Below are positions 2,903 to 29,778 of a stretch of 38,260 nt of DNA, in pieces. The notes beneath the pieces were generated by a model that ran no database searches, was not told the origin of the DNA, and saw only the letters and a program-made list of their open reading frames with translations. The number at the start of each line of letters is the position of its first letter. The first letter of the stretch is position 1. The translations under genes and the position numbers were made by a program. The stretch is from a virus: IMG/VR virus record IMGVR_UViG_3300047564_000252, positions 1 through 38,260 of that record; one strand, given 5' to 3'.

Positions 2903-3271
2903 ATGAAAAAGTCCAGATTCATTATTGGTTATCTGAACGACCCGACCACTTGGGACAAGGCTGCGTTTGAAACGGCTATTCGGGGAGAGGTTGAAGCGTC
3001 TACGGGAACGCTTACGCCTAGCGATGAACTGCTTATTGGTTCGCTAGTTTTGACTGTGGATAGTCTTTTGGTTGCGGAAATGAACATTCGTCAAATGGGC
3101 CTAACCACGCAATACAACTCGGGCGAGGCAACTAGCCCTTGGTACAGGATCAGAACCGAGATGGCAGATAAGGCCATCAAGATTCTTGCTGAATTGGGAT
3201 TGGTGGCTCGGGGTCGCCCGAAACTGAAAAATAAAGCCACGGAAGTAGATGAACTATTCGCCAACGCTTGA
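2903..3271 (+). CDS. terS: Terminase small subunit, P27 family (122 aa)
   Basis: The C-terminal half (SPWYRIRTEMADKAIKIL followed by AELGLVARGRPKL) has the layout of P27-like small terminases: a proline-led helix, then a Leu-rich helix, then a G-L-x-P/A-x-x-R-like end. The position directly before terL, with a 23-base overlap, supports the call. TerS recognises the packaging site and loads the large subunit on DNA. Length is slightly below the usual 130-170. The start is fixed by the excellent AAGGAGG upstream. Confidence 0.8.
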   Translation: MKKSRFIIGYLNDPTTWDKAAFETAIRGEVEASTGTLTPSDELLIGSLVLTVDSLLVAEMNIRQMGLTTQYNSGEATSPWYRIRTEMADKAIKILAELGLVARGRPKLKNKATEVDELFANA

Positions 3272-4928
3272 GAGTGCGTTTAAGTACGCTATTAGCGTAG
3301 TCCGGGGCGACATCCCGGCGTGTGAGGATGTCCAGTTAGCCTGCCAGCGATTCTTGGATGGGGTCGAACGTAAAGATGCGCCTTACGAGTTCGTCCCCGC
3401 CAAGGTCGAGCATGTGCTTAAGTTCGTTAAGTTTTGCCGCCACGTTAAAGGCCCGGAGGCAGGAAAGCCGATTGAACTGCAACCGTTTCAGGTTCTGTTC
3501 TTGGCTGGCATCTACGGATTCAGGGATAAGCGAGATCACTCAAGACGTTGGGTGACTGATGTCATTTTGTTCGTTCCGCGTAAGAGCGGGAAAACTACTC
3601 TTGCCTCTATCATCGCCCTATACGAACTTGTATTGGGAGATGCCGGTGCGGAAGTCTTTACCCTTGCCACGAATAGAGATCAGGCTTCCATCTGCTTTGA
3701 TTCGTCTAAGGGCATTGTCGAGGGCATGGACCCTCAACTTGCAGCCAAATTCCTTGTATACCGCAGCGAAATCAAAAAAGCAGGCGATTCGACATCGACG
3801 TATCGTGCACTAAGCCGAGAGAACCGCAAAACCGGCGACGGCAAGAACCCGTCATGCGCCTTGATTGATGAGGCCGCTCAGATCACCGAGCGATCCTCTA
3901 TTGAGGTGCTGCACTCCGGTATGGGTGCCCGCAAAAACCCCTTGCGGCTGTACCTGACTACTGCGTCCTTTACCCGCGAAACCAAGTTCTTTGAGGACTT
4001 GCAACACTATAAAGCGGTCTTAAGGGGCAGCGCAGAAGATACCTACAAGTGGTTTGGCCTGCTGTACTCCATTGATCCGGGCGATGAGTGGAGCAACCCG
4101 GCGGTCTGGGGCAAGGCTAACCCCATGCTCGGGGTGTCGGTCACTGCCGAGCACATTCAGCACATGGCAGACGAGGCGCAGAGCAAGCCTGCATCGCTTA
4201 ACGAGTTCCTGTGCAAGCAACTGAACATTTATGTCTCGGCTAACACGGCATGGCTAGATCGGCGTTTCTGGGATGACTCTATCCAAGATATGCCGTCTGA
4301 CCCGCCAGAGTCCACGTTTATTGCGTTTGACTTGGCGCAAAGCCGGGACTTGAATGCCGTCTGTACGCTGCACCGATACGGGGAAGAAAACTTCTTTGCT
4401 GAGTTCCAGTTCTTCTTGCCAGAGGAATCTTTGGACTTTGTGCCCAACCATTACAAGCCGATTTATGCGGAAGCAGCCCGTAGCGGCATTCTCAAGTTGA
4501 CTCAGGGCAACGTAACCGATTTAACCGAGGTTCAGTCGTACATTGAGAACCAGTGCAAGAAGTACGAGGTCAAAGAAATCGGTTTTGACCCGTATAACGC
4601 CGCTGCATTAGTCGCAAACCTGTATGGCAATGGGTTGCCAGTCAAAAAGGTCGGTCAGGGCATGGCGGTGCTATCAAACCCGTCCAAGACTACCGAGCAA
4701 CTGATTTTGAAGAAAGCAGTTCACCACAACGGCAATCCTTTTATCGGCTGGCAATTGGGCAACTGCGAGGTTTACACGGATGTGAACGGAAACGTCAAAG
4801 TTCGCAAGAACGAGGCTGACCCTGCCGCAAAGGTAGACGGCATCATTGCGCTGATTATGGCTATGCATTGCCATTTAGACAATGCCTACGTCGGAGAATC
4901 GTTTGGATTTAGGAGTTTTGAGTTATAG
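3249..4928 (+). CDS. terL: Terminase large subunit, HK97-like (559 aa)
   Basis: The packaging motor ATPase and nuclease. The Walker A motif is VPRKSGKTT (residues 109-117) and the Walker B is CALIDEAAQ with D207/E208, followed by the coupling motif LYLTTAS (about 234-240). The RNase H-like nuclease domain begins at FIAFDLAQSRDLNAV with D361 and D367, and a further acidic residue lies in AKVDGIIAL near the C-terminus. The length and layout fit the Terminase_1 group of cos-packaging phages. The ATG lies inside terS, 23 bases before its stop, a common coupling. Confidence 0.97.
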   Translation: MNYSPTLESAFKYAISVVRGDIPACEDVQLACQRFLDGVERKDAPYEFVPAKVEHVLKFVKFCRHVKGPEAGKPIELQPFQVLFLAGIYGFRDKRDHSRRWVTDVILFVPRKSGKTTLASIIALYELVLGDAGAEVFTLATNRDQASICFDSSKGIVEGMDPQLAAKFLVYRSEIKKAGDSTSTYRALSRENRKTGDGKNPSCALIDEAAQITERSSIEVLHSGMGARKNPLRLYLTTASFTRETKFFEDLQHYKAVLRGSAEDTYKWFGLLYSIDPGDEWSNPAVWGKANPMLGVSVTAEHIQHMADEAQSKPASLNEFLCKQLNIYVSANTAWLDRRFWDDSIQDMPSDPPESTFIAFDLAQSRDLNAVCTLHRYGEENFFAEFQFFLPEESLDFVPNHYKPIYAEAARSGILKLTQGNVTDLTEVQSYIENQCKKYEVKEIGFDPYNAAALVANLYGNGLPVKKVGQGMAVLSNPSKTTEQLILKKAVHHNGNPFIGWQLGNCEVYTDVNGNVKVRKNEADPAAKVDGIIALIMAMHCHLDNAYVGESFGFRSFEL

Positions 4929-4952: not shown

Positions 4953-6350
4953 ATGGCACTTTTTGACATCTTTCGTGCGAAAAAGCCCGAGCAAAACGAG
5001 GCAAACACGCTCTTTGGACAGACCGCACTAGGCAATAACGTCCTATATCAAGCCGGTCAAAAAACTCCTACAGCCTCTACTCAGATTCTGTATGTCACCA
5101 CGGCAAGCACTACGAGTGCAGGCCGTCCGGTGGATATGTCGGTACTGACGCGGAACAGTACCGTTATGGCGTGTATTGGGGCTAAGGCTCGGGCTATTTC
5201 TCAGTTGCCCATCCGCGTGATGGCAGAAACTGAGTCAGGCGTTTATGTAGACGCACTGCGTAGCGATAAGGTCGGTGCCCGGGACAAGGCAAAGGCTAAG
5301 TCGGTACATAACCTTCTATCCAGCCCAAACAACTTTCAGTCCACTTATGAGTTCTGGTATCAGTGGCTGATGTGGCATGAGTTGTCAGGCGAGGCGTTTA
5401 CCTTGTGGTGGCGCAAAGACCAAGACGTTCAGCAGCAGACCCCGCTAGAGATGTATGTGATGGATTCCACGCTGATTGCGGCGACCATCACCCCGACCCG
5501 TTACCCGTCCTACCGGCTGTCCACGCCCGCCTATGGGTTTAACAAGGACCAGCAACTAGCCTACTACCAGATCATGCACGTTAAAGACGCCGCATGGCAG
5601 GGTTCTGCGGGCTTTAACAAAGGCATCTTGGCGACCGAACTTGTTGCACTAGATCAGGATATTGATCTGTACGCAAACTACATCATGCAAAACGGCGCAA
5701 AGCCTTCTGGCCTGTTTGTGACCGAGGCGACCATCCCTGACGCCAAATACAAAGAAATTGCCGCCCGGATTAAGGAAACGTGGAACCAGATGACGGGTTC
5801 ACGGACTTCTGACCAGAGCAAAGCGGGTCAGGGAATGTTGTTGGATGCAGGCATGAAATACATGCCGATTGACATGCTGACCCTTCAGGACACTGACGCT
5901 GCCAAACTCAAAGAACAGACCATGAAGCGGATTTGCGGCCTGTTTGGGGTGCCGTATTCAATGATCGGCGTTGGCGAGGGCAAGTACAACAATACCCAAA
6001 CCATGCTGGACGAGTTCTATAAGTCCACGATGTACCCGCTGTTGGTTAACGTCCAGCAGAAACTGAAGCAACACCTTTTTTCTGGCTACCCGTCGCTTTC
6101 CATTCGGTTTGATACCCGCGATTTCCTTAAAGGCGCTCCGCTGGACCAAATGAACTTTGTGGTGGCGGCGGTTAGCAACGGGATCATGACGCCAAATGAG
6201 GCTCGGGAGTATCTGGCTATGCCAGAAATGCCCGGAGCGGATTCCCTAAATGCGGGCAAGTCTGCCGATCCGATTCCCGGCAGTAGCCCTCAAGACACAG
6301 GCGGCGGGGGTGGAAATCAAACCCGCAAAATGAATATCGGTCAGACCTAA
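4953..6350 (+). CDS. Portal protein, HK97-like (465 aa)
   Basis: The protein begins MALFDIFRAKK, a typical HK97 portal start, and contains AKARAISQLP-like early helix text, a WHELSGEAFTLWW-type core, and the phrase RICGLFGVPYSMIGVGEG followed by NTQTMLDEFYKSTMYP, which is diagnostic of the Phage_portal family. The end is Gly/Ser/Pro rich and disordered. Twelve copies form the portal vertex through which DNA enters. The start has TAGGAG eight bases upstream. It follows terL and precedes the protease, the canonical order. Confidence 0.95.
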   Translation: MALFDIFRAKKPEQNEANTLFGQTALGNNVLYQAGQKTPTASTQILYVTTASTTSAGRPVDMSVLTRNSTVMACIGAKARAISQLPIRVMAETESGVYVDALRSDKVGARDKAKAKSVHNLLSSPNNFQSTYEFWYQWLMWHELSGEAFTLWWRKDQDVQQQTPLEMYVMDSTLIAATITPTRYPSYRLSTPAYGFNKDQQLAYYQIMHVKDAAWQGSAGFNKGILATELVALDQDIDLYANYIMQNGAKPSGLFVTEATIPDAKYKEIAARIKETWNQMTGSRTSDQSKAGQGMLLDAGMKYMPIDMLTLQDTDAAKLKEQTMKRICGLFGVPYSMIGVGEGKYNNTQTMLDEFYKSTMYPLLVNVQQKLKQHLFSGYPSLSIRFDTRDFLKGAPLDQMNFVVAAVSNGIMTPNEAREYLAMPEMPGADSLNAGKSADPIPGSSPQDTGGGGGNQTRKMNIGQT

Positions 6351-6390: not shown

Positions 6391-6570
6391 TTGGCAACAT
6401 ATAAGCCACATGAGCAGCCAAAGCCCAAAAGGGGCAGGCCGCCGAAAATAAAAGACATTGACCAATCAAAAGTCGATGGAGTGATACATGACCAAACAGA
6501 TGATGATGCTTTGCGAGGCCAAACTGGTCGTAGAAAAGCAAGGCGACCAAGAGCCTACGGGCAAGATTGA
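6391..6570 (+). CDS. Possible AT-hook mini-protein (59 aa)
   Basis: The 137-base gap between portal and protease holds the first part of an open frame that could start at GTG 6358 or TTG 6391. Its translation includes KPKRGRPPKIK, a strong match to the AT-hook minor-groove-binding motif, with an acidic middle (QTDDDAL) and a basic end (GRRKARRPRAYG). It overlaps the protease start by 83 bases, and its start codon and ribosome site are weak, so it may be chance. If real it could bind DNA in the filling head. Nothing else supports this. Confidence 0.3.
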   Translation: MATYKPHEQPKPKRGRPPKIKDIDQSKVDGVIHDQTDDDALRGQTGRRKARRPRAYGQD

Positions 6571-7285
6571 GGCGCGAGTCACCACTTGGGGACCGCGAGA
6601 AGGCGCTGATGGTCGGCGCTTTTTTTATAAGCCCGAAGGATTCATGGATTGGGCAAAAGAGTTTTCTGCCCAAGGTCGCCCGCTTCCCATGTTTGTTAAC
6701 CACGCAGCGGACGCTATTCCCGTTGGTGAATGGACCTCTTTTGAGTTTGACGATCAGGGCATGACCGCAGAAGGGCGTCTTTATCTAAATACCACGCAAG
6801 GCTCTGATCTTTACCAAGTTATGAACGAATCGCCTGCCATGTTTGGCGGCGTTTCTGTTGGCGCATACGCCGATGAGTATTCTTGGGTTAAAGAAGATGG
6901 TTCGTTGTACAAAATTGACAACGATGACGATGATGAGGATGAAGGCTACTTCCAAATCACCAAAGGCGGCTTGCGTGAAGTGTCTGTGGTGATGTACCCG
7001 AATAACCCCAAAGCAGAAGTCAGCAAACTGGAGTTCTTCCGTGCTGATGGCACTGCGGATCTGAAGGTTTTGGAGAAAGCGTTGCGTGAAGCAGGGCTAT
7101 CCAAGAAAGATGCGGTCGCAGCCGCGTCTATCTTCAAGCGTGTGATGGAGCAGCGTGAGGTTGCCCCGGAGCAACTTGAAAATGCGCCGACTCAGCGTGA
7201 TGCCGATGCGGATGCGACCAAAGAAATCCTGCTTGCTCTTGAGCAGCGGGAACTTGTCAAACTTCTTTCTAAGAGGATCAAATGA
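6488..7285 (+). CDS. Prohead maturation protease (265 aa)
   Basis: This matches the HK97/U35 family of capsid proteases. The catalytic His lies in MFVNHAADAIPVGEW (H72), and the catalytic Ser in MFGGVSVGAYADEYSW (S123). The third member is not certain; a strongly acidic loop (DNDDDDEDEG) follows. The C-terminal 80 residues are helical and charged, the usual scaffold-like tail. It trims the delta domain of the capsid protein encoded next. The start has GGAG ten bases upstream (6477-6480). The stop and the next ATG share ATGA, coupling protease and capsid translation. Confidence 0.9.
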   Translation: MTKQMMMLCEAKLVVEKQGDQEPTGKIEARVTTWGPREGADGRRFFYKPEGFMDWAKEFSAQGRPLPMFVNHAADAIPVGEWTSFEFDDQGMTAEGRLYLNTTQGSDLYQVMNESPAMFGGVSVGAYADEYSWVKEDGSLYKIDNDDDDEDEGYFQITKGGLREVSVVMYPNNPKAEVSKLEFFRADGTADLKVLEKALREAGLSKKDAVAAASIFKRVMEQREVAPEQLENAPTQRDADADATKEILLALEQRELVKLLSKRIK

Positions 7286-8628
7286 AAGAAATCATCGAAA
7301 AACTGGACGCAATCGAAGCGTCTAACGTCGCTGCTGTTGAGGCTGTCAAAGCCGAGGCCGTGGCTGCTGTCGAGGCCGCTAAGGCTGAAATGAGTGAGAA
7401 GGTTGCTGCTCTGGAAGCCAAAGTGGCGACCGTGCAGGCTCCCGCCATCATTCGTCCTATTGCCAAGACCGTTCGCACCGATGTGAACCGCGCAGTGCGT
7501 GAACAACTGTCTGGTTTCTACAAGTCGGGCAAGCAACTTGAGAAAGAAATCAAGATGTTTGCGGACGAGAGCCAGTATCAGGCTTACCTGACGGAAGCCT
7601 CTGCCCTTACCGCTGGCGGTGATGGCAAGGGTGGTCGTACTGCGTATGACCCGGTGTTCGTCGCTCTGCGTCTGCGTAACCCGCTGCGCGGCGTGTCGCG
7701 TACCGTGGCTACCGATGGTTCGTCGTATCAGTTCCGCGTCAAGACCGGCAACGCTGGCGCACAATGGGGCTATGCGATCCAGAACAACGGCGCAGGCACG
7801 ACTGAAGATACGTCGATTTGGCAACTGGTGCTGAAAGACATCAACGTGCAATTCCCGATCCGTACTGCGGCTCTGGACGATATTGATGGCCTTGAGGCTA
7901 ACGTCGTTGATGACATGCTGGCTGAGTTCTCTCAGGCAGAAGGTCTGTCGATGATTGTTAACAACGACCAGTCGGGCACTGGCACCTCGGTTTCTACCGG
8001 TGGCGCTGATGGCCTGCGCGGTCTGGATCAGTACGCTGGCGCAAACGCTACCTACACGGGTGGTACTTGCTCTACTGCGTCGTTTGGTTCGTCGGGCACT
8101 GGTTCTTCCAGCGGTCTGCACAACCTTGCGACCTACGACCAGTTGACCACGAACGCCAACACCGTTGGTGCCAACAACATCACCTACAAGGACGTTGTTA
8201 ACTTCGTGTACAGCCTGCCTCAGCAGTACTGGACCCCGGACGCTCGCTTCATGATCTCCCCGATCCTGCTGCAAGCAATCCGTGGCCTGACCGACACCAA
8301 CGGCGCTCCGATCTTCAACCGTAATGAAGGTCTGTCTGTCGAGGGTATCGTTGGTCAACTGATGGGCTTTGATGTGGTGGTGAACAAGTACCTTGACACC
8401 CCCTCGCAGACCTCGACTGGCGCTGCTGGCACCACTAGCCTGTACCCGATGTACTTCGCTGACTGGTCGCGCTTCCACACCATCGTTGATCGCCTCAACA
8501 TGGTGGTGCGTCGCTACGACCAGACGCTGCCCGGTTTCATCACTTTCTACGGTGAAAAGCGACTGGCAACGTCGGTTCGTGACCCGAACGCTGGTGTGCG
8601 CTACCGCAGCACAGGAACCGCTACCTGA
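7282..8628 (+). CDS. Major capsid protein 1, HK97 fold with delta domain (448 aa)
   Basis: Residues 1-50 are an Ala/Glu/Lys/Val coiled coil (delta domain) and about 1-110 are probably removed by the neighbouring protease. The HK97 core starts near LTAGGDGKGGRTAYDPV and contains DTSIWQLV, FPIRTAALDDI, MLAEFSQAEG, NNDQSGTG, the A-domain text FMISPILLQAIRGL, and the end GFITFYGEKRLAT. A Gly/Ser/Thr-rich insertion (about residues 254-275) may be a surface loop. Codon use is strongly biased to C/G-ending codons, typical of a highly expressed gene. The next gene is a homologous capsid protein, so the shell may be built from two related proteins. Confidence 0.95.
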   Translation: MKEIIEKLDAIEASNVAAVEAVKAEAVAAVEAAKAEMSEKVAALEAKVATVQAPAIIRPIAKTVRTDVNRAVREQLSGFYKSGKQLEKEIKMFADESQYQAYLTEASALTAGGDGKGGRTAYDPVFVALRLRNPLRGVSRTVATDGSSYQFRVKTGNAGAQWGYAIQNNGAGTTEDTSIWQLVLKDINVQFPIRTAALDDIDGLEANVVDDMLAEFSQAEGLSMIVNNDQSGTGTSVSTGGADGLRGLDQYAGANATYTGGTCSTASFGSSGTGSSSGLHNLATYDQLTTNANTVGANNITYKDVVNFVYSLPQQYWTPDARFMISPILLQAIRGLTDTNGAPIFNRNEGLSVEGIVGQLMGFDVVVNKYLDTPSQTSTGAAGTTSLYPMYFADWSRFHTIVDRLNMVVRRYDQTLPGFITFYGEKRLATSVRDPNAGVRYRSTGTAT

Positions 8629-8634
8629 TGAAAC

Positions 8635-8660
8635 GGGGGGACTACGGTCCCCCCTTTCTC
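8635..8660 (+). terminator. Stem-loop between the two capsid genes (terminator or attenuator)
   Basis: GGGGGGAC (8635-8642), loop TACG, then GTCCCCCC (8647-8654) forms an uninterrupted 8-bp stem followed by TTTCTC. A wider stem, GAAACGG (8630-8636) with CCGTTTC (8661-8667), could form instead or around it. The U-tract is short, so termination is probably partial. Placed seven bases after the first capsid stop, it could set the ratio of the two capsid proteins or protect the upstream message from decay. Confidence 0.7.
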
Positions 8661-8680
8661 CGTTTCACTTAGGAATTGAC

Positions 8681-9697
8681 ATGAGCATCACCGAAAAAAT
8701 CCTTGACGGCATCAAGCGGGCCATTCACGAAGGCAACAAACAGACGATTGATCTGCGTGAAGCCTCTGCGATCACCGGCTCGGGTTCTGGTGTCGGTGGT
8801 AATGTTGTTTTTGACGATGCGTTTTCTGTCCTGCGATACTCCAACCCGTTCCGTATGGGTTCGCGGCAGATTACTGTCTCTGGCTCTGACGCTCAGTTCG
8901 TCGCCAAGACGGGTAACGCAGCAAACTCTACGAATCCTTGGGGCTACACCTTCACCCCAAACACTGGCTCCCCCAACGTCGATACGTCGATTTGGCAGTT
9001 GCCGGTGCGTGTCATCGTTGCCCAACTCCCGATCCGCACTGCGGTGCTGTCAGATGTGAACAATCTGCCGGTTGAGTTGGTCGAGGACATGATGATGGAA
9101 TTCAGCCAACTTGAAGCCGCGTCGATGGCGGGCAACAACGATCAGGCTGGAAGCACGACCACTTCTACAGGCGCAACTAGCGGTCTGCGCGGTCTGGACT
9201 ACTACGCTAGTGGCGCAACGTCCGCTTTTGGCACCTCGGGCACCGCAATTACCAACGGCATCCATACGATTGCCACGGTGTCCCTTGGCGGCTCTGCGGT
9301 GACGTACAACAAGATTGTGGACGCGGCTAAAGCCCTGCCTGCACAGTATTGGGCGCTGCCGGGTACTGCTTGGCATATGTCGCCTGACATGATTCTTGCC
9401 CTGCGTCAGTTGAAGGACACGCAAGGTCTGCCGCTGTTCCTTGAGATCGGCGATAAGGATGGCGCGGCTATCGGCAACGTGTTTGGCTTCCCGGTGATTC
9501 CGAACCCGTACCTGTCGGCGGCTTTCCCGATCTATCTGGCTAACTGGCCCCGCTTCTTGACCATCGGTGACACCGAGCAGTTCAACGTGCAGATGTACGA
9601 ACAAACCGCTCCGGGCTTTGTGACCATGTTTGCTGAGAAGCGTATGGTTAGCACGGTCCTGAACCCGTTTGCCGGTGTGCGAGTGAGCGCAGCGTAA
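8681..9697 (+). CDS. Major capsid protein 2, HK97-fold paralogue without delta domain (338 aa)
   Basis: A clear paralogue of the preceding capsid protein. Shared landmarks in the same order are RYSNPFRMGSR (for LRNPLRGVSR), AKTGNA, DTSIWQLP, QLPIRTAVLSDV, MMEFSQLEA, NNDQAGST, GLRGLDYYA, AQYWALPG, MSPDMILALRQL, and GFVTMFAEKRMVS. Only about 30 residues precede the core, so the long coiled-coil delta domain is missing, as in a mature HK97 subunit. The start is ATG 8681 with AGGAA six bases upstream; an open frame extending to 8393 is an overlap artefact. Both copies look intact. It may occupy special positions in the shell, but that is inference. Confidence 0.93.
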   Translation: MSITEKILDGIKRAIHEGNKQTIDLREASAITGSGSGVGGNVVFDDAFSVLRYSNPFRMGSRQITVSGSDAQFVAKTGNAANSTNPWGYTFTPNTGSPNVDTSIWQLPVRVIVAQLPIRTAVLSDVNNLPVELVEDMMMEFSQLEAASMAGNNDQAGSTTTSTGATSGLRGLDYYASGATSAFGTSGTAITNGIHTIATVSLGGSAVTYNKIVDAAKALPAQYWALPGTAWHMSPDMILALRQLKDTQGLPLFLEIGDKDGAAIGNVFGFPVIPNPYLSAAFPIYLANWPRFLTIGDTEQFNVQMYEQTAPGFVTMFAEKRMVSTVLNPFAGVRVSAA

Positions 9698-10368
9698 TGG
9701 CAGCACAAGACTACATCATGGGCTACCCCTTTGCGGGGGTAACTCGTAATCCGTTCAACTACGTCAAGTTTGAGCAGATTGACCGCGATGTGGTCACGCC
9801 TTGGCTGACTTTGGACGAGATTTCTCAGCAGATTAATCTGTATGAAGACGAGTCTCAGGACGTTTATCTAAAGTCGCTAGAGTTAGCGGTGCGTCAGGCA
9901 GTAGAGGACTATCTTGGGCTGTCTATTTTCCCGGTGACGTACCGGGTTTGGTACGGGCCTGAGAGTCTGACTGCCACGCCTTGCGCCCTTGATTTGCCCG
10001 AAGTTAGCCAAAACCAATACCCGAATCAGTCGGGTGTCACGATTGAGGCTGTTAAATACTACAACTCAAACGTGCCGGCAACGATTACCACGGTTGCAAC
10101 AAATCAGTACCAGTACGATCCGACCGGCAATAAGGTAATTGTTCAATCCCTGCCGAGCGACATCAACAGCAACATGACTGCGCCGATCATTGTGGAATAC
10201 ACAACTGCGCCGAACCCGTTGCAGACGTACCCGGTCATCAAGCAGGCGGCTCTGTTGCTGTACACGCACTTGTACAACAATCGTTCTAACAGCACCGAGG
10301 CCAACCTGAAAGACATTCCGTTTGGCTTTACTGCCTTGCTGAAACCTTACAAACCACTAATCATGTGA
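9697..10368 (+). CDS. Head-tail connector / adaptor protein, HK97 gp6-like (223 aa)
   Basis: The phrase PWLTLDEISQQINLY followed by LKSLELAVRQAVEDYLG is the usual opening of HK97 gp6/SPP1 gp15-type adaptors (LDEAKxHLR...LLxxAxxxIExYLG). The end, YPVIKQAALLLYTHLYNNR and IPFGFTALLKPYK, also fits this family. A beta-rich insertion (about 90-165) makes it longer than the classic 100-residue form. It would form the ring beneath the portal. It shares one base with the capsid stop. A homing endonuclease gene follows it and separates it from the next connector gene. Confidence 0.8.
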   Translation: MAAQDYIMGYPFAGVTRNPFNYVKFEQIDRDVVTPWLTLDEISQQINLYEDESQDVYLKSLELAVRQAVEDYLGLSIFPVTYRVWYGPESLTATPCALDLPEVSQNQYPNQSGVTIEAVKYYNSNVPATITTVATNQYQYDPTGNKVIVQSLPSDINSNMTAPIIVEYTTAPNPLQTYPVIKQAALLLYTHLYNNRSNSTEANLKDIPFGFTALLKPYKPLIM

Positions 10369-10370
10369 CT

Positions 10371-10910
10371 ATGTATTACACATACGTTCATGTTACCGCT
10401 GATACTGGCAACATTTTTTATGTTGGCAAAGGTACTGGTCGTCGCATGAATCGACGCGATGCCAGAAATCAGCACTGGTGGAATGTGGTCAACAAGCACG
10501 GATATAAAGTACAAAAACTCGCTGATTGGTCTAGTGAAGCAGAAGCGTTTGAGCATGAAAAAGTATTGATTTCGTGCTTCAAGGACATGGGCTTCAAGTT
10601 GGTCAATCAAAGTAGCGGCGGCGATGGTAATGATGCCGCAGGCGGGTTGTCATTCAAAGGCAAAAAGCATACAGAACAAGCAAAACTGAAATGCAAAGTT
10701 GCCAACCTTGGCAAAAAAGCATCAGAAGAAGCCAAGCAAAAAAACAGACAAAAGCATCAAAAACAAATAAAAATCAATGGCATCATCTATCCTAGTTGGC
10801 ACGATGCAAGTGTCGCAACAGGTATCCCTGTCGGAAGTTTGTCGTGGTTGATGAAACCAACAAAGAGAACAAAGAAGTGGGTTGGCTTTGTTGTTGAAGC
10901 GGTCATGTAA
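10371..10910 (+). CDS. GIY-YIG homing endonuclease with NUMOD modules (179 aa)
   Basis: The nuclease domain shows the GIY equivalent YTYVHV, the YIG equivalent FYVGKG, the catalytic Arg in GRRMNRR, the Glu in FEHEKVLI, and the Asn in KLVNQSSGG. A NUMOD3-like segment follows (FKGKKHTEQAKLK, then GKKASEEAKQ) and a NUMOD1-like helix-turn-helix ends it (INGIIYPSWHDASVATGI). The gene interrupts the connector genes: its start overlaps the gp6-like stop and its stop overlaps the next ATG. GTG 10365 is an alternative start. Its DNA is rich in A, unlike the head genes, as expected of an inserted selfish gene. Confidence 0.9.
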   Translation: MYYTYVHVTADTGNIFYVGKGTGRRMNRRDARNQHWWNVVNKHGYKVQKLADWSSEAEAFEHEKVLISCFKDMGFKLVNQSSGGDGNDAAGGLSFKGKKHTEQAKLKCKVANLGKKASEEAKQKNRQKHQKQIKINGIIYPSWHDASVATGIPVGSLSWLMKPTKRTKKWVGFVVEAVM

Positions 10911-11703: not shown

Positions 11704-12198
11704 ATGGCGATTCCAAACAAAGTGTTGCCCGGTTTTAGTGCGGCGCTTTATGCTCAGTCCGGTGCAACTCCGACTGTGCTGACTAATACGCAATTGGCTA
11801 CTTGGGCTAACGTGTCGGCAATTGCTATCACGGCAAACCTGTTGCCTGTGGAAGCAGTGCCTGCCTTTGGCATGGACGATGCAATGGCGAACTACTCCGT
11901 TGCAGGGTCGCGTCAGTCTGACAAGATTCCCACGCAGTCCGCACCTACTTCCATGTCGATTACTGCTGCATGGAACCCGGCAGACACGCAACTGTTGGCA
12001 ATGCGGGCAGACGCAGAAAACGGCACGATTGACCGCACGTTTGTGGTGACTGCAAGTGATGGCACCAACATCGTTGCATATGCCTTTAACGGTCGAGTTG
12101 GCAACTTCCAGATTGATGCCCAACCCGGCGCAGAAGCCAAATGCAATTTCACTGTTCACCCGCGTGGAAACCAGTACGGCTGGTCCAACAACACCTAA
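11704..12198 (+). CDS. Major tail tube protein, copy 1 (164 aa)
   Basis: The protein is Ala/Thr/Gly/Asn rich with tube-protein features: an N-terminal KVLPGFSAALYAQ, the loop VEAVPAFGMDDAMANYSVAG, and the end QPGAEAKCNFTVHPRGNQYGWSN, a beta-rich fold of the size of siphophage tube subunits. It sits between the tail terminator and the chaperone genes, the normal place for the tube. The start has GGAG eight bases upstream. Copy 2 follows after ten bases. Over the last 116 residues the two copies differ at only 11 positions, but their first 47-55 residues diverge. Confidence 0.85.
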   Translation: MAIPNKVLPGFSAALYAQSGATPTVLTNTQLATWANVSAIAITANLLPVEAVPAFGMDDAMANYSVAGSRQSDKIPTQSAPTSMSITAAWNPADTQLLAMRADAENGTIDRTFVVTASDGTNIVAYAFNGRVGNFQIDAQPGAEAKCNFTVHPRGNQYGWSNNT

Positions 12199-12208
12199 GA
12201 GGTAAATC

Positions 12209-12727
12209 ATGGCACTTCCGAATAAAGTCCTTCCCGGTTTTAGTGCAGCCCTCTGGATGCAGAGTGCTGCTACTCCCACGCCTCTTAGCACTGCCAACCT
12301 GTCTGTCTGGTCGGCACAAGTGGCTACGATTGTCGGCACTGCTGCTGGTGGCACTGGTGCTGCTGGTGTGCAACTGCCTGTTGAGGCTGTTCCTGCTTTC
12401 GGCATGGATGACGCGATGGCGAACTACTCTGTCGCTGGTTCGCGTCAGTCGGACAAAATCCCGACCCAATCCGCTCCGACCAGCATGAGCATTACGGCAG
12501 CGTGGAATCCCAACGATTCGGCACTGCTGCAAATCCGCTCAGACGCCTATAACGGCACCGTAGACCGCACGTTTGTGGTGTCGGCATATGACGGCACCAA
12601 CACCGTCGCTTATGCGTTTAACGGGCGCGTAGGCAACTTCCAGATCGACGCGCAGCCGGGTGCCGAGGCGAAGTGCAACTTTACGGTGCATCCGCGTGGC
12701 AACCAGTACGGTTGGAGCAACTCGTGA
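12209..12727 (+). CDS. Major tail tube protein, copy 2 (172 aa)
   Basis: A tandem paralogue of copy 1, with the same start (ALPNKVLPGFSAALWMQS) and an identical 46-residue block (codons at 12374-12511). Thirty of those 46 codons differ synonymously from copy 1. This marks an old duplication with both copies under strong purifying selection, rather than a recent repeat. A Gly/Ala-rich stretch (GTAAGGTGAAGV) replaces the variable part of copy 1 and adds eight residues. AGAGGT lies just upstream of the ATG. The tube may be a hetero-polymer, or one copy may form a special ring; neither can be told from sequence. Confidence 0.85.
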   Translation: MALPNKVLPGFSAALWMQSAATPTPLSTANLSVWSAQVATIVGTAAGGTGAAGVQLPVEAVPAFGMDDAMANYSVAGSRQSDKIPTQSAPTSMSITAAWNPNDSALLQIRSDAYNGTVDRTFVVSAYDGTNTVAYAFNGRVGNFQIDAQPGAEAKCNFTVHPRGNQYGWSNS

Positions 12728-18309: not shown

Positions 18310-21300
18310 ATGGTCGGATCAATGATCGTTGCAACTATAGCGGGCACTACTGCCGCTGGTGTTGCTGCTAGTTTTGCGCTTACGGCTGCGGCATTTGCCG
18401 TGAATTTTGCCGTGTCGTACATCGTCAATAGGATGTTTGCTCCGAACCTAGACGATAAACAAACCACAAACAACCGAGAGCAAGTTCCCCCGACTACAGA
18501 CAACGCAATTCCTGTTGTCTATGGCGATGCCTACCTTGGGGGCACGTTTGTAGATGCTGCGCTTAGTAGCAACCAAAACGTCATGTACTACACGCTGGCG
18601 ATCTCCAGCATTAGTGACAACGGGCAGTTTACGTTTGACACCACAAAGTTTTACTACGGTGGGCGACTCATTACCTTTGACGGCACCGACCAGACCAAGG
18701 TTGTGAGCCTGACGGACGATGCTGGCAACGTAGATACGAAGATCAACGGCAACCTGTTTATTAGCCTGTTTACGTCTACGTCGGCTGGAACGATTACCCG
18801 CGTCAACACAGGCTACTACCCGTGGCAGATTTACGGTTCTACTAGCCCGTCCCCCGTTTATTCCGCTAACTTGGTTCCTGCGGCGCAGCAATGGGCAAGC
18901 ACAAACCGGAACATGAACGGGCTAGCGTTTGCTGTTGTGGCTTTGTTCTACAACGCAGAGGCCGGGACTACATCGCTTCAACCAATCACATTTAAGGTCA
19001 AACATGCCTTAAATGGCACGGGTGTCGCCAAACCGGGTGATGTTTGGTACGACTACATGACCAACGACATCTATGGTTGTGCCATTGATGCGGCGTATGT
19101 AGACAGCACTGCGGCGACTACCCTTAACACTTACGCTGACCAAACTATCTCCTACACGCCTTCTGGCGGCGGGTCGGCTACGCAGGCCCGGTATCGCATC
19201 AACGGGGTGTTGACCGGCAACGTGTCTTGTCTGGAAAACGTAGACAAGATTCTGAATGCTTGCGATTCTTGGATGACGTACAACGCTGCGTCAGGCAAGT
19301 GGTCAGTTGTAGTCAACAAGGCAGAAAGCGCATCATTTGCGTTTAACGACACGAACATCGTAGGTGAGATTCGTGTCAGTGCTACGGACATTACCTCAAG
19401 CGTCAACCAGATTGAGGCGCGGTTCCCATTCAAGGAAAACAAAGACCAACCTAATTTTGTATTCCTGCAAACGCCTGCTGGTTTGTTGTACCCGAACGAG
19501 CCGGTCAACAAGACATCCGTTACCTACGATCTAGTCAACGATTCGGTGCAGGCTCAATACCTTGCCAACCGGGTTCTGGAGCAAGCCCGCGAGGACTTGA
19601 TCGTCAGTTTCAACACTACTTACTACGGCATTCAGGTTGATGCTGGTGATGTGGTGAGCGTGACCAACACAGACTATGGCTGGTCTGCCAAGTTGTTCCG
19701 TGTGATGAAGGTCAACGAGGTTTCCTTGCCTGACGGCAACCTCGGGGCGCGGCTGGAAATGGCTGAGTACAGCGCGGCTGTCTACGACGATGCCACGATC
19801 ACAGAATACGCTCCGGTCGCCAACAGCGGTCTTGCTGCGCCTGAATACTTCTCTGGCCTGTCCGCGCCAACGATCCCGGCATCTCGTCCCGCAGTCCAGA
19901 TTCCATCATTTGACGTTGCTGTCACTGTGCCTACGACCGGCAGGGTGATGTGGATTGAACTGTTCTATACGACCAGTGCCGTCCCGACCACGGCAGACTG
20001 GAAGTCGTTGATGGTGGCTACGCAGTCGAATAGCCAACCGTTTACCAATTCATCGACGTACACGTTCCTAAACCAAGTCCTGCCTGCGGGGACGTACTAC
20101 TTTGGCTACAAGGTAGGAAACGAAAACGGGCAGTCGGTTATCAGCGGCGTTAGTGCTGCGCTGGTGTGGAACCCGGTAGGTATTGCTGGCACCAACAGTG
20201 CTACGGTGTACCTGTACAACAAAAACAATTCAATAACGCCGCCTACGCTGTTCTCTGGCCCGTTTCTTTATACGTTTTCAACCGGCGTGTTGTCACTTGA
20301 AACAGGTGGTGCATTTAATGGATGGTCGCAAACTATCCCTACGTTATCGACAGGCGAGTATTTGTTTGTCTCATTTGCCACGGCAACAAGTAATGCTGCA
20401 ACAGTCACACTGCAAACAGCAAACTTTAGCGCAGCGCAATTATTTTCCAACATAGCTGCTAACACAGCAATTGTTAGTATTTATCAAAAAAATACTAGTG
20501 CAACCGTTGCTCCTGCCAATCCAAGCGGCACATTTACATATACGTTTGCAACTGGTACGTTGTCGGGTGGAACTTTTAATGGATGGTCCCAAAGTTTTCC
20601 GGTGCTTGGTGTTGGTGAATATGCGTGGATAAAACAAGCAACGGCATATAGTGCAGATGCAACAGCCTCAATTCCTGCTGCTTCATTTACTACGTCAAGA
20701 GTTGTAAGCGCATTAGGTCCAACTGGTCCTACCGGTATTACTGGACCAACCGGAACAGCAGGCCCAACCGGCAATACAGGACCAACCGGAACACAAAACG
20801 CAAGACCGGTTGTGTATCAATGGGCTTTGTCAATTCCATCTGCTCCAACTGGAACAAGCACATATACATGGAGTACAGGAACATTTACGCCTACTCCTGC
20901 GGGGTGGACAACAACGCCCGGATCACCGCCCACGCTTGGATTTACGTTATGGGCTGCAACAGTTAACTTGGTTGAAACAGGAGGATCGCCTACATCAACA
21001 ATTAACTGGACGCTTGCTTCTATTACTGCATCTGGTTATGCAGGAACAAATGGGGTAACTGGCCCGACTGGTCCTAGTGTCACAGGTCCGGCAGGTACTT
21101 CTGCCCGAATTATGTTTGCTCGTATTGCAAGCAATCCAACACCTGTTAGCGGAAATGTCACCGTATCTGGAGACAACCGACCAACCGGCACGCAAGCAAG
21201 TGCCGTATGGGGTGCTGCATTTAACGTTACATGGTCTGCAACTGATCCTGATCCATCAAGCAATAACTCGTTGTATCAATCTGATGGTCTTTGGAATGGA

Positions 21301-22197
21301 ACAAATACGATTTGGTCTACGCCTTACATTTCTAGTTTGAAAGTTGGTTCTTTGTCGGCTATTACCGTAAATACGGGCGCGCTGACAGTTCAAGATACTT
21401 TGACAATCAATACGCTAGGCAAGATTCTTGGCGGTCAAACCGACTACGCTACAGGCACAGGATTTTTCCTTGGCTATAGCGGGGCGTACAAGTTTTCTAT
21501 CGGAGACAGTACAAAGTATTTGCGGTGGGATGGTTCTAACCTTAATTTCACAGGCAATTTAGACACCACAGGTCAATTGATTGGTCGAGGTGTCATTACA
21601 TCTGGTGTAGTTACGGCATCCATTTATGGCGCTGGATTGACTGCTGATAGTGCTACTGCGCGAGTAGGTGTTCTTGGTGTTTCTGATAAATCGCATGGTT
21701 TGTTTGGACAAACTAATGCTGGTTCATCATTTGCTGGTTCTTGGGCAGTAGGTAATGGCTCTGGTAGTTATGGTGTTCTGGGACAAGTTAACACTACTAA
21801 CAATCCATCTGGAACAGGCGTAAGGGGCGAAACAAGCACCGGATATGGTGTTTATGGAACAGCAATAAGTACCTCTGGCATTGCTGTATATGCCGATGGA
21901 CGTTTGGAGGCAACAAAAACAATTCGCACTACTGGTGTGCAAGTGCCTTCATCGGGAACTGGTATAGAACTAGCCTATTCATCTGGCGTTGGTTATGTTG
22001 TTTCGTATGACCGAGGCACAAGCACTGCCAAACCATTTGAAATCATTAGTAGTTCTACAACGCTAGGTGGAACAGCGGCCATCCCGGCTACATCTACGTC
22101 TACTGGAACTGTAGGCCAGATTGCTTGGGATGCTTCCCATCTGTATGTGTGCGTCGCTTCAAACTCTTGGCGGCGTGTGGCCCTATCAACATTCTGA
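18310..22197 (+). CDS. Tail tip attachment / host-specificity protein, J-like with modular fibre end (1295 aa)
   Basis: Residues 1-45 are hydrophobic and Ala-rich (IAGTTAAGVAASFALTAAAF), as in many J-like proteins. About 50-520 form the hub region (VPPTTDNAIPVVYGDAYLGG, and later YYGIQVDAGDVVSVTNTDYG). Fibronectin-like beta domains lie at about 545-620. Three related beta modules follow (about 630-720, 721-800 and 835-910, each with SGxFxYTF...NGWSQ-like text). A short collagen-like run of Gly-Pro-Thr triplets lies at about 803-832, and a second small one near 917-930. The last 250 residues are Gly/Ser/Thr-rich beta repeats (GVLGVSDKSHGLFGQ, YGVLGQVN) ending WRRVALSTF. From about 20,200 onward the DNA is richer in A/T, suggesting a swapped fibre half. 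Confidence 0.85.
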   Translation: MVGSMIVATIAGTTAAGVAASFALTAAAFAVNFAVSYIVNRMFAPNLDDKQTTNNREQVPPTTDNAIPVVYGDAYLGGTFVDAALSSNQNVMYYTLAISSISDNGQFTFDTTKFYYGGRLITFDGTDQTKVVSLTDDAGNVDTKINGNLFISLFTSTSAGTITRVNTGYYPWQIYGSTSPSPVYSANLVPAAQQWASTNRNMNGLAFAVVALFYNAEAGTTSLQPITFKVKHALNGTGVAKPGDVWYDYMTNDIYGCAIDAAYVDSTAATTLNTYADQTISYTPSGGGSATQARYRINGVLTGNVSCLENVDKILNACDSWMTYNAASGKWSVVVNKAESASFAFNDTNIVGEIRVSATDITSSVNQIEARFPFKENKDQPNFVFLQTPAGLLYPNEPVNKTSVTYDLVNDSVQAQYLANRVLEQAREDLIVSFNTTYYGIQVDAGDVVSVTNTDYGWSAKLFRVMKVNEVSLPDGNLGARLEMAEYSAAVYDDATITEYAPVANSGLAAPEYFSGLSAPTIPASRPAVQIPSFDVAVTVPTTGRVMWIELFYTTSAVPTTADWKSLMVATQSNSQPFTNSSTYTFLNQVLPAGTYYFGYKVGNENGQSVISGVSAALVWNPVGIAGTNSATVYLYNKNNSITPPTLFSGPFLYTFSTGVLSLETGGAFNGWSQTIPTLSTGEYLFVSFATATSNAATVTLQTANFSAAQLFSNIAANTAIVSIYQKNTSATVAPANPSGTFTYTFATGTLSGGTFNGWSQSFPVLGVGEYAWIKQATAYSADATASIPAASFTTSRVVSALGPTGPTGITGPTGTAGPTGNTGPTGTQNARPVVYQWALSIPSAPTGTSTYTWSTGTFTPTPAGWTTTPGSPPTLGFTLWAATVNLVETGGSPTSTINWTLASITASGYAGTNGVTGPTGPSVTGPAGTSARIMFARIASNPTPVSGNVTVSGDNRPTGTQASAVWGAAFNVTWSATDPDPSSNNSLYQSDGLWNGTNTIWSTPYISSLKVGSLSAITVNTGALTVQDTLTINTLGKILGGQTDYATGTGFFLGYSGAYKFSIGDSTKYLRWDGSNLNFTGNLDTTGQLIGRGVITSGVVTASIYGAGLTADSATARVGVLGVSDKSHGLFGQTNAGSSFAGSWAVGNGSGSYGVLGQVNTTNNPSGTGVRGETSTGYGVYGTAISTSGIAVYADGRLEATKTIRTTGVQVPSSGTGIELAYSSGVGYVVSYDRGTSTAKPFEIISSSTTLGGTAAIPATSTSTGTVGQIAWDASHLYVCVASNSWRRVALSTF

Positions 22198-22529: not shown

Positions 22530-22585
22530 CCCTGCGAGTACGCGGGGAGCGTAACAACCTGAGAGCAGGGAGTTGTCGTGGCAAC
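22530..22585 (+). promoter_or_regulatory. Stem-loops sequestering the start of the second GIY-YIG gene
   Basis: Two hairpins fit in the 88-base gap: CCCTGCG (22530-22536) with CGCGGGG (22541-22547) around AGTA, allowing one G-U pair; and CCTG (22558-22561) with CAGG (22566-22569) around AGAG. The second covers part of the ribosome site GGGAG. A third possible pairing, GTTG (22572-22575) with CAAC (22582-22585), encloses the GTG start. Free-standing homing endonuclease genes in T-even phages use such hairpins to limit translation; the same may apply here. Confidence 0.5.
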
Positions 22586-23057
22586 ACTATATTGGTTGCG
22601 TTTGTCAGAACATGCCGACCCTTTTTTGCAAGGGTATATTGGCGTTGCCGATGACATGACCAAGCGATTGCGTTCACACAAGCATCGCTTTAAGCACTTG
22701 TGGTCACAAATTATTGTGCAGCCGCTAGTAGTTGCCGGAAAAGACTACTGCTTTGAACTTGAAAAGCAATTGCGCCCTAAACGCAATGTTGGGTGGAATC
22801 GTGCTTGTGGCGGCAAACGCAACAATGCCATGTTTGGTGTTGAAAACCCCAATTTTGGAAAACTTGGTCAACAAGCCCCGCACTTTATTGGATGGTATGT
22901 CACGCCACTAGGTCGGTTTGATAGGCCAGAAGATGCCGCAAAGGCACATAAATGCGCTGCATCAACGATTGCTCGGAGATGTAGAGGAAGAACTGTAAAC
23001 GGTAAATTTTTGCCGCCACATGACGGCTACGCATTTGAGCAGAAAGTAGCAGGGTAA
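22578..23057 (+). CDS. GIY-YIG homing endonuclease-like protein (159 aa)
   Basis: The nuclease domain is present in a slightly divergent form: LYWLRL as the GIY strand, GYIGVADDMTKRLRSHK as the YIG strand with catalytic Arg, FELEKQL with the Glu, and NRACGGKRNN as the Asn-containing end. The second half has a helix-turn-helix of the NUMOD1 kind (GRFDRPEDAAKAHKCAAS then TIARRCRGRTVNG). The GTG start has GGGAG six bases upstream. It is wedged between a fibre-associated gene and a beta-rich gene that lacks a normal start codon, so its arrival may have disturbed that gene. Confidence 0.82.
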   Translation: MATLYWLRLSEHADPFLQGYIGVADDMTKRLRSHKHRFKHLWSQIIVQPLVVAGKDYCFELEKQLRPKRNVGWNRACGGKRNNAMFGVENPNFGKLGQQAPHFIGWYVTPLGRFDRPEDAAKAHKCAASTIARRCRGRTVNGKFLPPHDGYAFEQKVAG

Positions 23058-23058
23058 G

Positions 23059-23544
23059 ATCATCGCTATCTTCAATAAAAATACGCTGGCACAAGTCAGT
23101 GGATTCGACAATCCTATTCTTGCTGGTGAACTTGTTTGGGACCAGCAAACTTACTGGAATCTGACGTTTACCTCAAACTCAACGCCTGTTGATCTGACGG
23201 GCGCGACCATTGACGCGCAAATCGTCAGGCGAGAGGTTTCCAATATCACCGATACCCGTAATGGGTTGACGTTCGATATTGCGGACTACAACCCGACTCC
23301 AGCGGCTATCCCGCTGACCATCACCAACATCAATGCGGCTCTAGGCCAATGCACTCTCGTCATTGACGCGGGAGCGTGGTCCTTGATGAGTACCGACCCA
23401 GAACTAGAGATCAACGCCACAAACTGTGTTGGCTACTCTGGTCGAGTGAAAGTTTCCTTCCCTGCGGTGGGTTCGACCCCGGCAGATGACATGGTGATTT
23501 TCCTCTTGTTCTTGGTCCGCAGTGATGGTGTGGTGGTGCTATGA
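23059..23544 (+). CDS. Beta-rich fibre-linked protein with no canonical start codon (about 161 aa)
   Basis: The frame is open from 23050 to 23544, and its translation reads as protein from at least [20 protein letters not shown] onward. Yet no ATG or GTG occurs before 23266, where the first TTG lies about 70 codons in. The natural start would be the ATC at 23059 (giving M-IAIFNKNT), with CAGGG just upstream, two bases after the stop of the GIY-YIG gene. CTG 23086 is another option. The rest is beta-rich ([17 protein letters not shown], then [16 protein letters not shown]). It overlaps the collagen-like gene by ATGA, so it probably belongs with the fibre. Start loss through homing-gene insertion, or a rare ATC start, are both possible. 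Confidence 0.65.
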
Positions 23545-26500
23545 GAGTAACTGTTGGGACGCAGACTGATCCGTTGGTTGTCAATGTTGTAGACCAGAAC
23601 AATGTTGTCGTAGAAGTTAATCCAACTAACGACGTTTCGGTTGAGGTTATTCCGCAACCTCGGGTAGAGGCGCGGATTGATCGTGGCGTAAGCGGCAACA
23701 CTGGACCTACTGGTCCTACCGGCCCGTCTGGTCCTGCTGGTGGACCTACGGGTCCTACAGGGGCATTAGGGCCTACCGGAAATGCAGGCGCGTCTGGTCC
23801 CACCGGACCGCAAGGCGATCTAGGGCCTACTGGTCCTACCGGGGATGCGGGTGCGGCTGGCCCGACCGGTCCTACCGGAGATGCTGGAGGTGTAGGCCCG
23901 ACTGGTCCCACAGGTCAAGCCGGTACTTCAGGCCCTACTGGTCCGACGGGTGATGTTGGAAGCGTAGGCCCGACCGGCCCGACTGGTGAGCAAGGGATTG
24001 CAGGCCCTACTGGTCCGACGGGCAATACCGGTACTGTAGGCCCAACTGGGCCTACGGGTGAGCAAGGTGTGGCTGGTCCAACTGGACCGACTGGAGATCA
24101 AGGTGGCGTCGGTCCTACCGGCCCTACTGGAGATCAGGGAGCAATTGGTCCTGCCGGTAATGTTGGGCCTACGGGTCCGACTGGCGATATTGGAAGCATT
24201 GGACCTACTGGACCTACTGGTGCTGCATCTACAGTTGCTGGCCCGACTGGCCCGACAGGTGCTGTCGGTCCGACCGGCCCCGGAGGCTCTGGTTCTGGTG
24301 ATGTTTTAGGTCCGGGTGCATCGACTGATAACGCAGTAGTGCGTTGGGATGGCGCTTCTGGCACATTGATTCAAAACTCCGATGTCACTCTGTCTGACAC
24401 GGGGACATTTGCCAATGTTGAGGCAATGTCGTTTGATACCGCAGCGGCGGTGGCATCTGCGGCAGGCAAGATCACATGGAATGACGGTGACGGCACTCTT
24501 GAGTTTGGCTTAAAGGGTGGTAATGTTGTACTGCCTATCGGTCAAGAGAATGTTGTTCTTGTATATAACGGCTCAGGCTCAACCATTGCTGCTGGCAAAG
24601 TGGTTGCTGTTTCTGGCGCTCAGGGTCAGCGTCCAAGTATTGCTCTTGCTGACGCAGATAGTGAGCCTTTGTCTGCTGCTACTCTCGGCCTTACTTCTGA
24701 AAGTATTGCAAACGGCGCTGAAGGTTTTGTCACCACATTCGGAGTAATTAAAAACCTTGATACGTCAGCATTTACTGCTGGCGATGATGTCTACCTAAGC
24801 CAAACGGCAGGCGAATTCACTGCCACCAGACCGCAAGCCCCAGCGCATACGGTGTTCCTTGGTTGGGTCATCAAGATCAATGCGTCTAGTGGTGAACTGT
24901 TCCTCAATATCAATAACGGTTGGGAACTAGACGAACTCCACAACGTCTACATCAATAACCCCACCCAAGGGCAGGCGCTTACCTATGACGCTACTGCCGG
25001 GTACTGGACTAACACGACCGCAGTAGGTCCAACTGGTCCGACAGGTGCAACTGGTGCGGCTGGTCCTACCGGGCCTACGGGTGACACAGGAGCAGTTGGA
25101 CCGACGGGACCGACAGGAGAAACTGGACCTACTGGCAGCGCAGGCCCGACAGGTCCAACCGGCACGGCAGGCGTTGCTGGACCTACTGGCCCCACGGGTG
25201 CACAAGGCGATGCAGGCCCGACCGGTCCCACCGGAGATGCGGGTTCTGCTGGACCTACGGGACCAACTGGCGCACAAGGTAATGTCGGTCCTACCGGGCC
25301 TACAGGAGATGCTGGAGTCGCTGGTCCTACGGGGCCGACGGGCAATACGGGGGCGGCTGGCCCCACGGGTCCAACTGGAGATACTGGAGCAGCAGGGCCA
25401 ACTGGTCCAACTGGACAAAATGGTGCGGCAGGGCCGACCGGTCCTACGGGCGATGCGGGAGTTGCTGGTCCTACCGGGCCGACTGGAGCCGCAGGAACTG
25501 CTGGACCTACTGGACCTACAGGCGATGCAGGCGTTGCCGGTCCCACAGGTCCGACCGGGGCGCAAGGAAATGTAGGGCCAACTGGTCCGACCGGCGCACA
25601 AGGCAATGTAGGTCCGACTGGACCAACCGGCGACGCTGGTTCTGTTGGTCCTACCGGTCCCACCGGCAGCACCGGACTGACTGGCCCGACTGGTCCTACG
25701 GGAGATGCCGGGGTTGCTGGACCAACGGGTCCGACGGGTGCCCAAGGTAACACTGGACCTACCGGCCCGACAGGACCGACCGGTGATATTGGACCGACCG
25801 GTCCTACAGGTGCTGCGTCCACCGTAGCAGGACCAACTGGGCCTACGGGACCGACAGGTGCGGAATCTACCGTTGCTGGACCTACTGGACCTACCGGTCC
25901 CACGGGTGCCGCGTCTACTGTTGCTGGACCTACAGGCCCAACCGGACCTACTGGAGCAGATTCAACTGTTGCCGGCCCCACGGGTCCGACCGGCCCTATC
26001 GGCGCACAAGGTCCGACTGTTTACCCCAGTGCAGGCATTGCAGTATCTACCGGCACGGCATGGGATACGTCGTTAAGCATTCCGCTGACGATTGACAACG
26101 GCGGCACGGGAAAGACTACGGCACCGGCAGCAAATGCAAACCTGACGGGCTTTACCACTACAGCCACGGCAGGCGGTACTACAACGCTGACCAACGCTAG
26201 TTCGTATTACCAAGTCTTTACCGGTACGTCCAACCAGACAGTTGAACTGCCCTCCACCTCTACCTTGCAGCAAGGGTGGAGTTTCCACATCGTCAATAAC
26301 TCGACGGGCACTCTAACTGTTCAAACGTCCACGGCAGTGTCTTTGGGGACGGTGCCGCCCGGTGTAACTGCCATGCCAACAGCCCAAACTATTACGGGCA
26401 ACACGGCAACGGATTGGGAGTTTGGCTACACCGATTTCAGTGCCCTTACAGGTACGGGTGCTGCGGTTTTGGCTACATCGCCGACGCTTAGTGGACCAAC

Positions 26501-26816
26501 CATTAACGATGGATATACAGAAGAAGTTTTTACTGTGACGGGCACAACCCCCGCGTTGTCTCCAACTAACGGGTCCATTCAGACGTGGACGCTAACGGCA
26601 TCTTCAACCCCTACGGCTGGAACTTGGGCATCAGGACAAAGCATGACCATTATGGTTGATGATGGTACAGCCTACACCATCAACTGGACCTCGTTGCCTG
26701 TAACGTGGAAAACCAATAACGGAACTGCCCCGACGTTAAATACGACAGGGCTTACCGCAATTGTTTTGTGGAAGGTTAGTACAACCATTTATGGGGCGCG
26801 TGTGGGAGACGCTTAA
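23541..26816 (+). CDS. Giant collagen-like tail fibre protein (1091 aa)
   Basis: Residues 1-50 form a short beta head ([19 protein letters not shown]). A first collagen-like Gly-X-Y domain spans about 52-251, a globular domain about 252-490 (ending [11 protein letters not shown]-like text; [20 protein letters not shown] at its start), and a second Gly-X-Y domain about 495-826. The C-terminal 265 residues are beta-rich ([20 protein letters not shown] near the start, ending [10 protein letters not shown]). The Gly-X-Y parts are built mainly from 12-residue units GPTGPTGxxGxx. Such fibres form trimeric triple helices; Thr in the third position may substitute for hydroxyproline and may be glycosylated. 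Two glycosyltransferase genes lie downstream. Confidence 0.9.
23694..24297 (+). repeat. Collagen-like repeat tract 1 (Gly-X-Y, 36-bp higher-order unit)
   Basis: About 65 Gly-X-Y triplets, mostly in 36-base units encoding GPTGPTGxxGxx with variable third and fourth triplets (DAG, EQG, DQG, NTG). The units are near-identical in protein but use mixed codons for Gly, Pro and Thr, so the DNA copies are imperfect. The tract ends in [10 protein letters not shown]. Confidence 0.9.
25023..26018 (+). repeat. Collagen-like repeat tract 2 (Gly-X-Y with AxSTVA breaks)
   Basis: About 110 triplets. The first three quarters repeat the 12-residue unit GPTGPTGxxGxx; the last quarter switches to a 16-residue unit with a non-triplet break ([16 protein letters not shown] and its AES/ADS variants), repeated about four times. 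Breaks like this make a flexible kink or a register reset in triple helices. Confidence 0.9.
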
Positions 26817-29215: not shown

Positions 29216-29218
29216 GTC

Positions 29219-29761: not shown

Positions 29762-29778
29762 CTTAGACAAGATAAGAC

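Follow-up and report, generated by a model that had tools for sequence, protein, structure and literature searches.

A conserved tandem pair of HK97-fold capsid paralogues in small siphophages, with a delta domain on one partner

In small-genome phages of the HK97 type, a single capsid protein is assumed to make both the pentamers and the hexamers of the head. The DNA analysed here, a virus record of 38,260 bases examined over its entire length (hereafter the window), carries two adjacent genes that a first-pass annotation read as paralogous major capsid genes. The locus raises the question of what a second capsid protein, here called MCP2, might do beside the first, MCP1.

Two capsid paralogues in one head operon

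Open reading frames, together with Pfam and PHROG scans, define a head operon of standard siphophage type (Table 1), in which MCP2, a gene of the phage itself, is flanked by MCP1 and the connector gene. The S78 (PF04586) protease gene adjoins MCP1, its stop codon overlapping the MCP1 start, and both the protease-MCP1 and the MCP2-connector junctions are overlaps of a few bases. The two capsid reading frames are intact and lie where they had been placed, and their description as clear paralogues is borne out by 41% identity over 342 columns (E = 6e-72) and by Pfam Phage_capsid (PF05065) scores of 95.9 bits for MCP1 and 61.8 bits for MCP2, both above the cut-off of 24.2. All of the sequence landmarks that they were said to have in common were found in both proteins.

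Table 1. Head-operon features of the window and the evidence for them.
Feature	Position	Strand	Evidence or remark
Terminase large subunit	3249-4928		
Portal	4953-6350		
Prohead serine protease, peptidase family S78	6488..7285	+	PF04586 E = 2.2e-9; head maturation protease PHROGs
MCP1, HK97-family major capsid protein with delta domain, 448 aa	7282..8628	+	PF05065 E = 3.6e-27; phrog_10
MCP1 delta (scaffold) domain, 104 residues upstream of EAS	7282..7593	+	Conserved length; modelled helices
Intrinsic-terminator-like hairpin, GGGGGGAC-TACG-GTCCCCCC then TTTCT	8632..8657	+	Fold z = -3.99
MCP2, HK97-family capsid paralogue without delta domain, 338 aa	8681..9697	+	PF05065 E = 9e-17; AlphaFold2 and Foldseek
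MCP2 short N-terminal stub, 26 residues, predicted helix 3-17	8681..8758	+	162-pair median
Connector	9697-10368		Followed by tail genes

Elsewhere in the window, a free-standing homing-endonuclease-like gene with NUMOD4/HNH matches lies at 763-1284, and another homing-endonuclease-like gene (10365-10910; weak NUMOD3 and I-TevI DNA-binding matches) separates the connector from the next head-tail gene; an open reading frame at 22578-23057 has no Pfam match and resembles free-standing genes of this kind by eye. GPTGPT collagen-like repeats occur in the tail-region genes at 23541-26816 (very long) and 18310-22197. The late genes at 28520-31368 include a product that is glycosyltransferase-like by eye, without a Pfam match (28520-29215), and a methyltransferase plus family 2 glycosyltransferase-like protein with TPR matches (29779-31368).

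For MCP2, AlphaFold2 with 43 homologues gave a model of moderate confidence (mean pLDDT 67, pTM 0.71), whose 340 Foldseek matches at E <= 0.001 are headed by the RcGTA capsid (E = 4e-16) and the HK97 prohead (E = 9e-14); the HK97 fold of this predicted model was recognised against structures 6tb9 and 8fqk. The objection, named beforehand as decisive, that MCP2 might adopt some other fold fails because Foldseek places the model with these two capsids. The AlphaFold2 model of MCP1 is poor, with a mean pLDDT of 49.5, and the delta domain may be what disturbs it; the top structural matches of this weak model are likewise to the RcGTA capsid, which the MCP1 sequence profile also finds (E = 1e-8).

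The two proteins differ in the residues that precede a common EAS motif. Across 162 distinct homologous pairs, the median extension is 104 residues for MCP1 (minimum 100) and 26 for MCP2 (maximum 41), as in the window itself. The length of the MCP1 extension is kept at 100-112 residues in these pairs, and a delta-length extension is confined to MCP1; MCP1 has the ~100-residue N-terminal delta domain of a self-scaffolding HK97-type major capsid protein, and MCP2 does not. The first-pass annotation had assigned a coiled-coil scaffold domain to MCP1. The long extension stands, and it is modelled at modest confidence by AlphaFold2 as mostly helical (a long helix at 2-50, then 64-81 and 96-109); that it forms a coiled coil is plausible.

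The S78 protease presumably removes the MCP1 delta domain, with cleavage likely near residue 104, although we infer the exact site. Lysine or arginine immediately precedes EAS in 102 of 160 MCP1 and 111 of 159 MCP2 sequences, the window having T in MCP1 and R in MCP2 at this position. Cleavage of the phi12 capsid protein (CP) occurs after R128, and of the SaPIbov5 protein Ccm after K87 (PMC8569155). A cut before EAS in both MCP1 and MCP2 is a reasonable guess, and the protease possibly removes the MCP2 stub as well. Homology between the 26-residue stub and the final part of the MCP1 delta domain is unproved: the two can be aligned, but scores as good came from 88 of 200 shuffled profiles.

Conservation and age of the pair

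Relatives of the pair number in the hundreds among viral contigs: three scans gave 303, 481 and at least 580 confirmed stretches, and the best 80 from each were used. The only match in the GenBank phage collection was P19250A, a Methylophilaceae phage, and each of the four bacterial or archaeal MAGs checked contained exactly two such capsid genes. Counting all fetched loci with room to tell, which represent 190 distinct junction sequences and include some contigs fetched repeatedly, the MCP1 gene has MCP2 behind it in 261 of 262, and the MCP2 gene has MCP1 ahead of it in 256 of 256. A stop-to-stop open reading frame count made 37 loci appear to lack MCP2, in every case an artefact caused by reading frames that overlap. 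In a single locus (L191, 1-753), the end of MCP1 is present and MCP2 is absent; its contig belongs to a MAG labelled Polymorphobacter, starts within an MCP1 C-terminus and continues with a hairpin, a phrog_26742 gene and bacterial genes. This arrangement could reflect a single-capsid relative, an assembly join or the remnant of a prophage. The MCP2 frame is broken in two contigs (L143, and one fetched as both L011 and L084), probably through sequencing errors.

The first-pass annotation had proposed a phylogeny to date the duplication. In a tree of 67 proteins, comprising 31 MCP1, 31 MCP2 and single-capsid outgroups, MCP1 and MCP2 fall into separate clades, supported at 88 and 100, and the capsids of Pseudomonas D14E, Shigella SfII, Azospirillum Cd, NatCom_9287 and one genome lie outside both. 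The operons of the outgroup phages contain one capsid gene apiece. A search of 274 same-class genomes for close single-capsid relatives found none, yielding one weak match besides the known pair, and the outgroups are for this reason four distant phages and the weak-match genome. With two clades and the single-capsid proteins outside them, one duplication precedes the sampled group; because the outgroups are distant and long-branched, the position of the root is less sure than the split between MCP1 and MCP2. The capsid pair is a fixed, ancient trait and not a local duplication.

The stem of MCP2 in this tree is twice as long as that of MCP1 (0.97 and 0.47), as expected of a specialised copy. 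Median dN/dS values of 0.16 for MCP1 and 0.18 for MCP2 indicate purifying selection on both sequences, in keeping with the first-pass view that both genes look intact. Pairwise distances for the two proteins correlate (r = 0.70); their tree topologies disagree in places, so some exchange may have occurred. The window also encodes tandem tail tube proteins (11704-12198 and 12209-12727) that are 77% identical, and the tail tube reading frame is doubled in 28 of 80 related loci and single in the other 52. Duplicates in this operon thus come and go, as in the tail tube, whereas the capsid pair persists.

The intergenic hairpin and the predicted relative dose of the two proteins

The gap between MCP1 and MCP2 measures 46-82 bases, and in the window it folds into a structure of -28 kcal/mol (z-score in Table 1) whose 3' T-tract (TTTCT) is weak. 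A uniform scan found terminator-like hairpins in 111 of 119 distinct gaps, at a density of 14.2 per kb against 0.24 per kb in the surroundings (58-fold enrichment), and in 106 the gap hairpin was the strongest in the surrounding ~7 kb. Examples from relatives are the stems GGCGGGGGC-TTCG-GCTCCCGCC and AGGGCGGTGGTA-ATA-CACTGCCGCCCT, each followed by T-runs. Stem sequences vary widely between gaps, and it is therefore structure rather than sequence that is kept; RNAalifold on MAFFT-aligned gaps returned only 3 pairs, and gap sequences were scored singly because the hairpins do not align.

Among 20 window genes compared, the effective codon number Nc is lowest for MCP1 (36.8), with MCP2 next (46.3), and codon bias is stronger in MCP1 than in MCP2 in 150 of 162 distinct pairs (p = 2e-26). 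Shine-Dalgarno strength does not account for a lower MCP2 dose, MCP2 having the slightly better site. The conserved hairpin and the codon bias suggest that MCP1 is made in excess, and thus predict more MCP1 than MCP2, leaving the ratio itself unproved; to this extent they support the earlier expectation that the two amounts differ. Because the connector and tail genes are also downstream of the hairpin, it is best read as setting MCP1 above all others, with MCP2 on the low side. Such attenuation would lower all downstream genes, not MCP2 alone, and hairpins 3' of major capsid genes are a common device; for both reasons, the hairpin does not single out a penton.

A proposed division of labour and comparison with known systems

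The reading that we favour, by a modest lean, is that MCP1 builds and scaffolds the hexamer lattice and that MCP2 serves as a specialised minor subunit, with the penton as its most likely place. The head would then consist of two co-evolved HK97-fold subunits derived from one old gene duplication. MCP1 would bring its own scaffold in the delta domain, cut off later by the S78 protease, and being in large excess would form the hexamer lattice. MCP2, which would have lost or never had a scaffold, would be scarcer, as transcription would partly stop at the intergenic hairpin and its codons are less favoured; unable to form a shell alone, it would be recruited into the MCP1 procapsid and take its place within the MCP1 shell, most likely as the eleven pentons of a T=7-like head. 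Such a head would need 55 penton and 360 hexon subunits, or about 55 MCP2 to 360 MCP1. Phage JBD30 has a genome of 36.9 kb and a T=7 capsid of 415 subunits (PMC11445458), so that a T=7 head is in keeping with a genome of 38 kb. The penton position is favoured because the known two-subunit HK97-fold shells considered here, T4 gp23/gp24 and phi12 CP/SaPIbov5 Ccm, put the second subunit at the five-fold vertices. A broader proposal, to which we give slightly less than an even chance, is that independently of T4 a large and widespread group of ~38 kb aquatic siphophages has come to use a self-scaffolding major capsid protein as the source of all scaffolding for a scaffold-free paralogue, with a conserved attenuator between the genes setting the ratio.

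The evidence for unequal dose and for the HK97 fold would fit equally well a minor shell subunit located elsewhere than the penton, for instance near the portal or mixed into hexamers; since the T4 and SaPIbov5/phi12 shells use their second protein in pentamers, we regard such a placement as unlikely, if still worth weighing. MCP2 is not a low-expression gene, given that its Nc is the second lowest among the window genes compared, and this would suit two alternating major coat proteins present in similar amounts. Against such an arrangement stand the conserved terminator-like hairpin that separates the genes, the consistently weaker codon bias of MCP2 and its lack of a scaffold of its own, which together make it quite improbable.

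We see an equally slim prospect for MCP2 as a factor for assembly or size control that works on the procapsid and is absent from the virion, or that serves a second particle type. A protein without a delta domain could modulate MCP1 assembly, and Ccm does alter capsid shape (PMC8569155); yet Ccm itself remains in the capsid, and MCP2 retains a complete HK97 fold under purifying selection. The tail tube gene shows that variable, recent duplication does occur in the same operon, but a recent or decaying MCP2 without function is contradicted by the presence of the pair in essentially all relatives, by the old split and by the MCP2 dN/dS, and we consider it barely conceivable.

In the literature covered, which was mainly openly licensed, we found no published tandem or paralogous capsid genes in such phages. 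The two-subunit principle is known from T4; what appears to be new is its occurrence in a group of small self-scaffolding HK97-type siphophages, with the scaffold on one partner and a conserved intergenic hairpin. A long-kept pair of which one member is scaffolded offers a natural system for studying the need for a delta domain, the distinction between pentamers and hexamers and the setting of dose. It also corrects annotation: a second capsid gene, one that can be overlooked, is present in hundreds of contigs from aquatic phages, with consequences for how capsid genes are counted and placed in trees in viral ecology. In the isolated relative P19250A (KX815270), genes 0005 and 0006 form the pair in identical order, are 60% and 58% identical to those of the window and fall in the same clade, and only 0005 is annotated as capsid, the MCP2 gene 0006 being listed as a 'hypothetical protein'.

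The nearest solved sequence is the RcGTA major capsid protein, and the nearest folds are those of RcGTA and HK97, in both of which a single capsid protein forms pentamers and hexamers. In T4, gp23 loses 65 residues and gp24, which forms the vertices, only 10 (PMC9958956). T4 likewise has a paralogous HK97-fold pair with one long and one short N-terminal propeptide region, and its copy numbers are unequal (PMC9958956). The T4 proteins are ~20% identical (PMC9958956), against 41% for MCP1 and MCP2, and T4 has a separate scaffold core and a large prolate head, whereas the window phage has a self-scaffolding capsid protein and a ~38 kb genome. MCP1 and MCP2 show no membership of the T4 capsid family, Pfam giving PF05065 only and PHROG only HK97-type head families. 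SaPIbov5 Ccm is a homologue of phi12 CP with a shorter delta domain that forms pentamers and makes no shell alone (PMC8569155); like MCP2, it is an HK97-fold homologue with the shorter extension, the main phi12 protein making the hexamers. Ccm, however, is encoded by a satellite that redirects its helper, and it retains a delta domain of 87 residues, whereas MCP2 is the phage's own gene; its place in the phage's own head operon led us to reject MCP2 as a satellite-encoded, helper-redirecting penton homologue.
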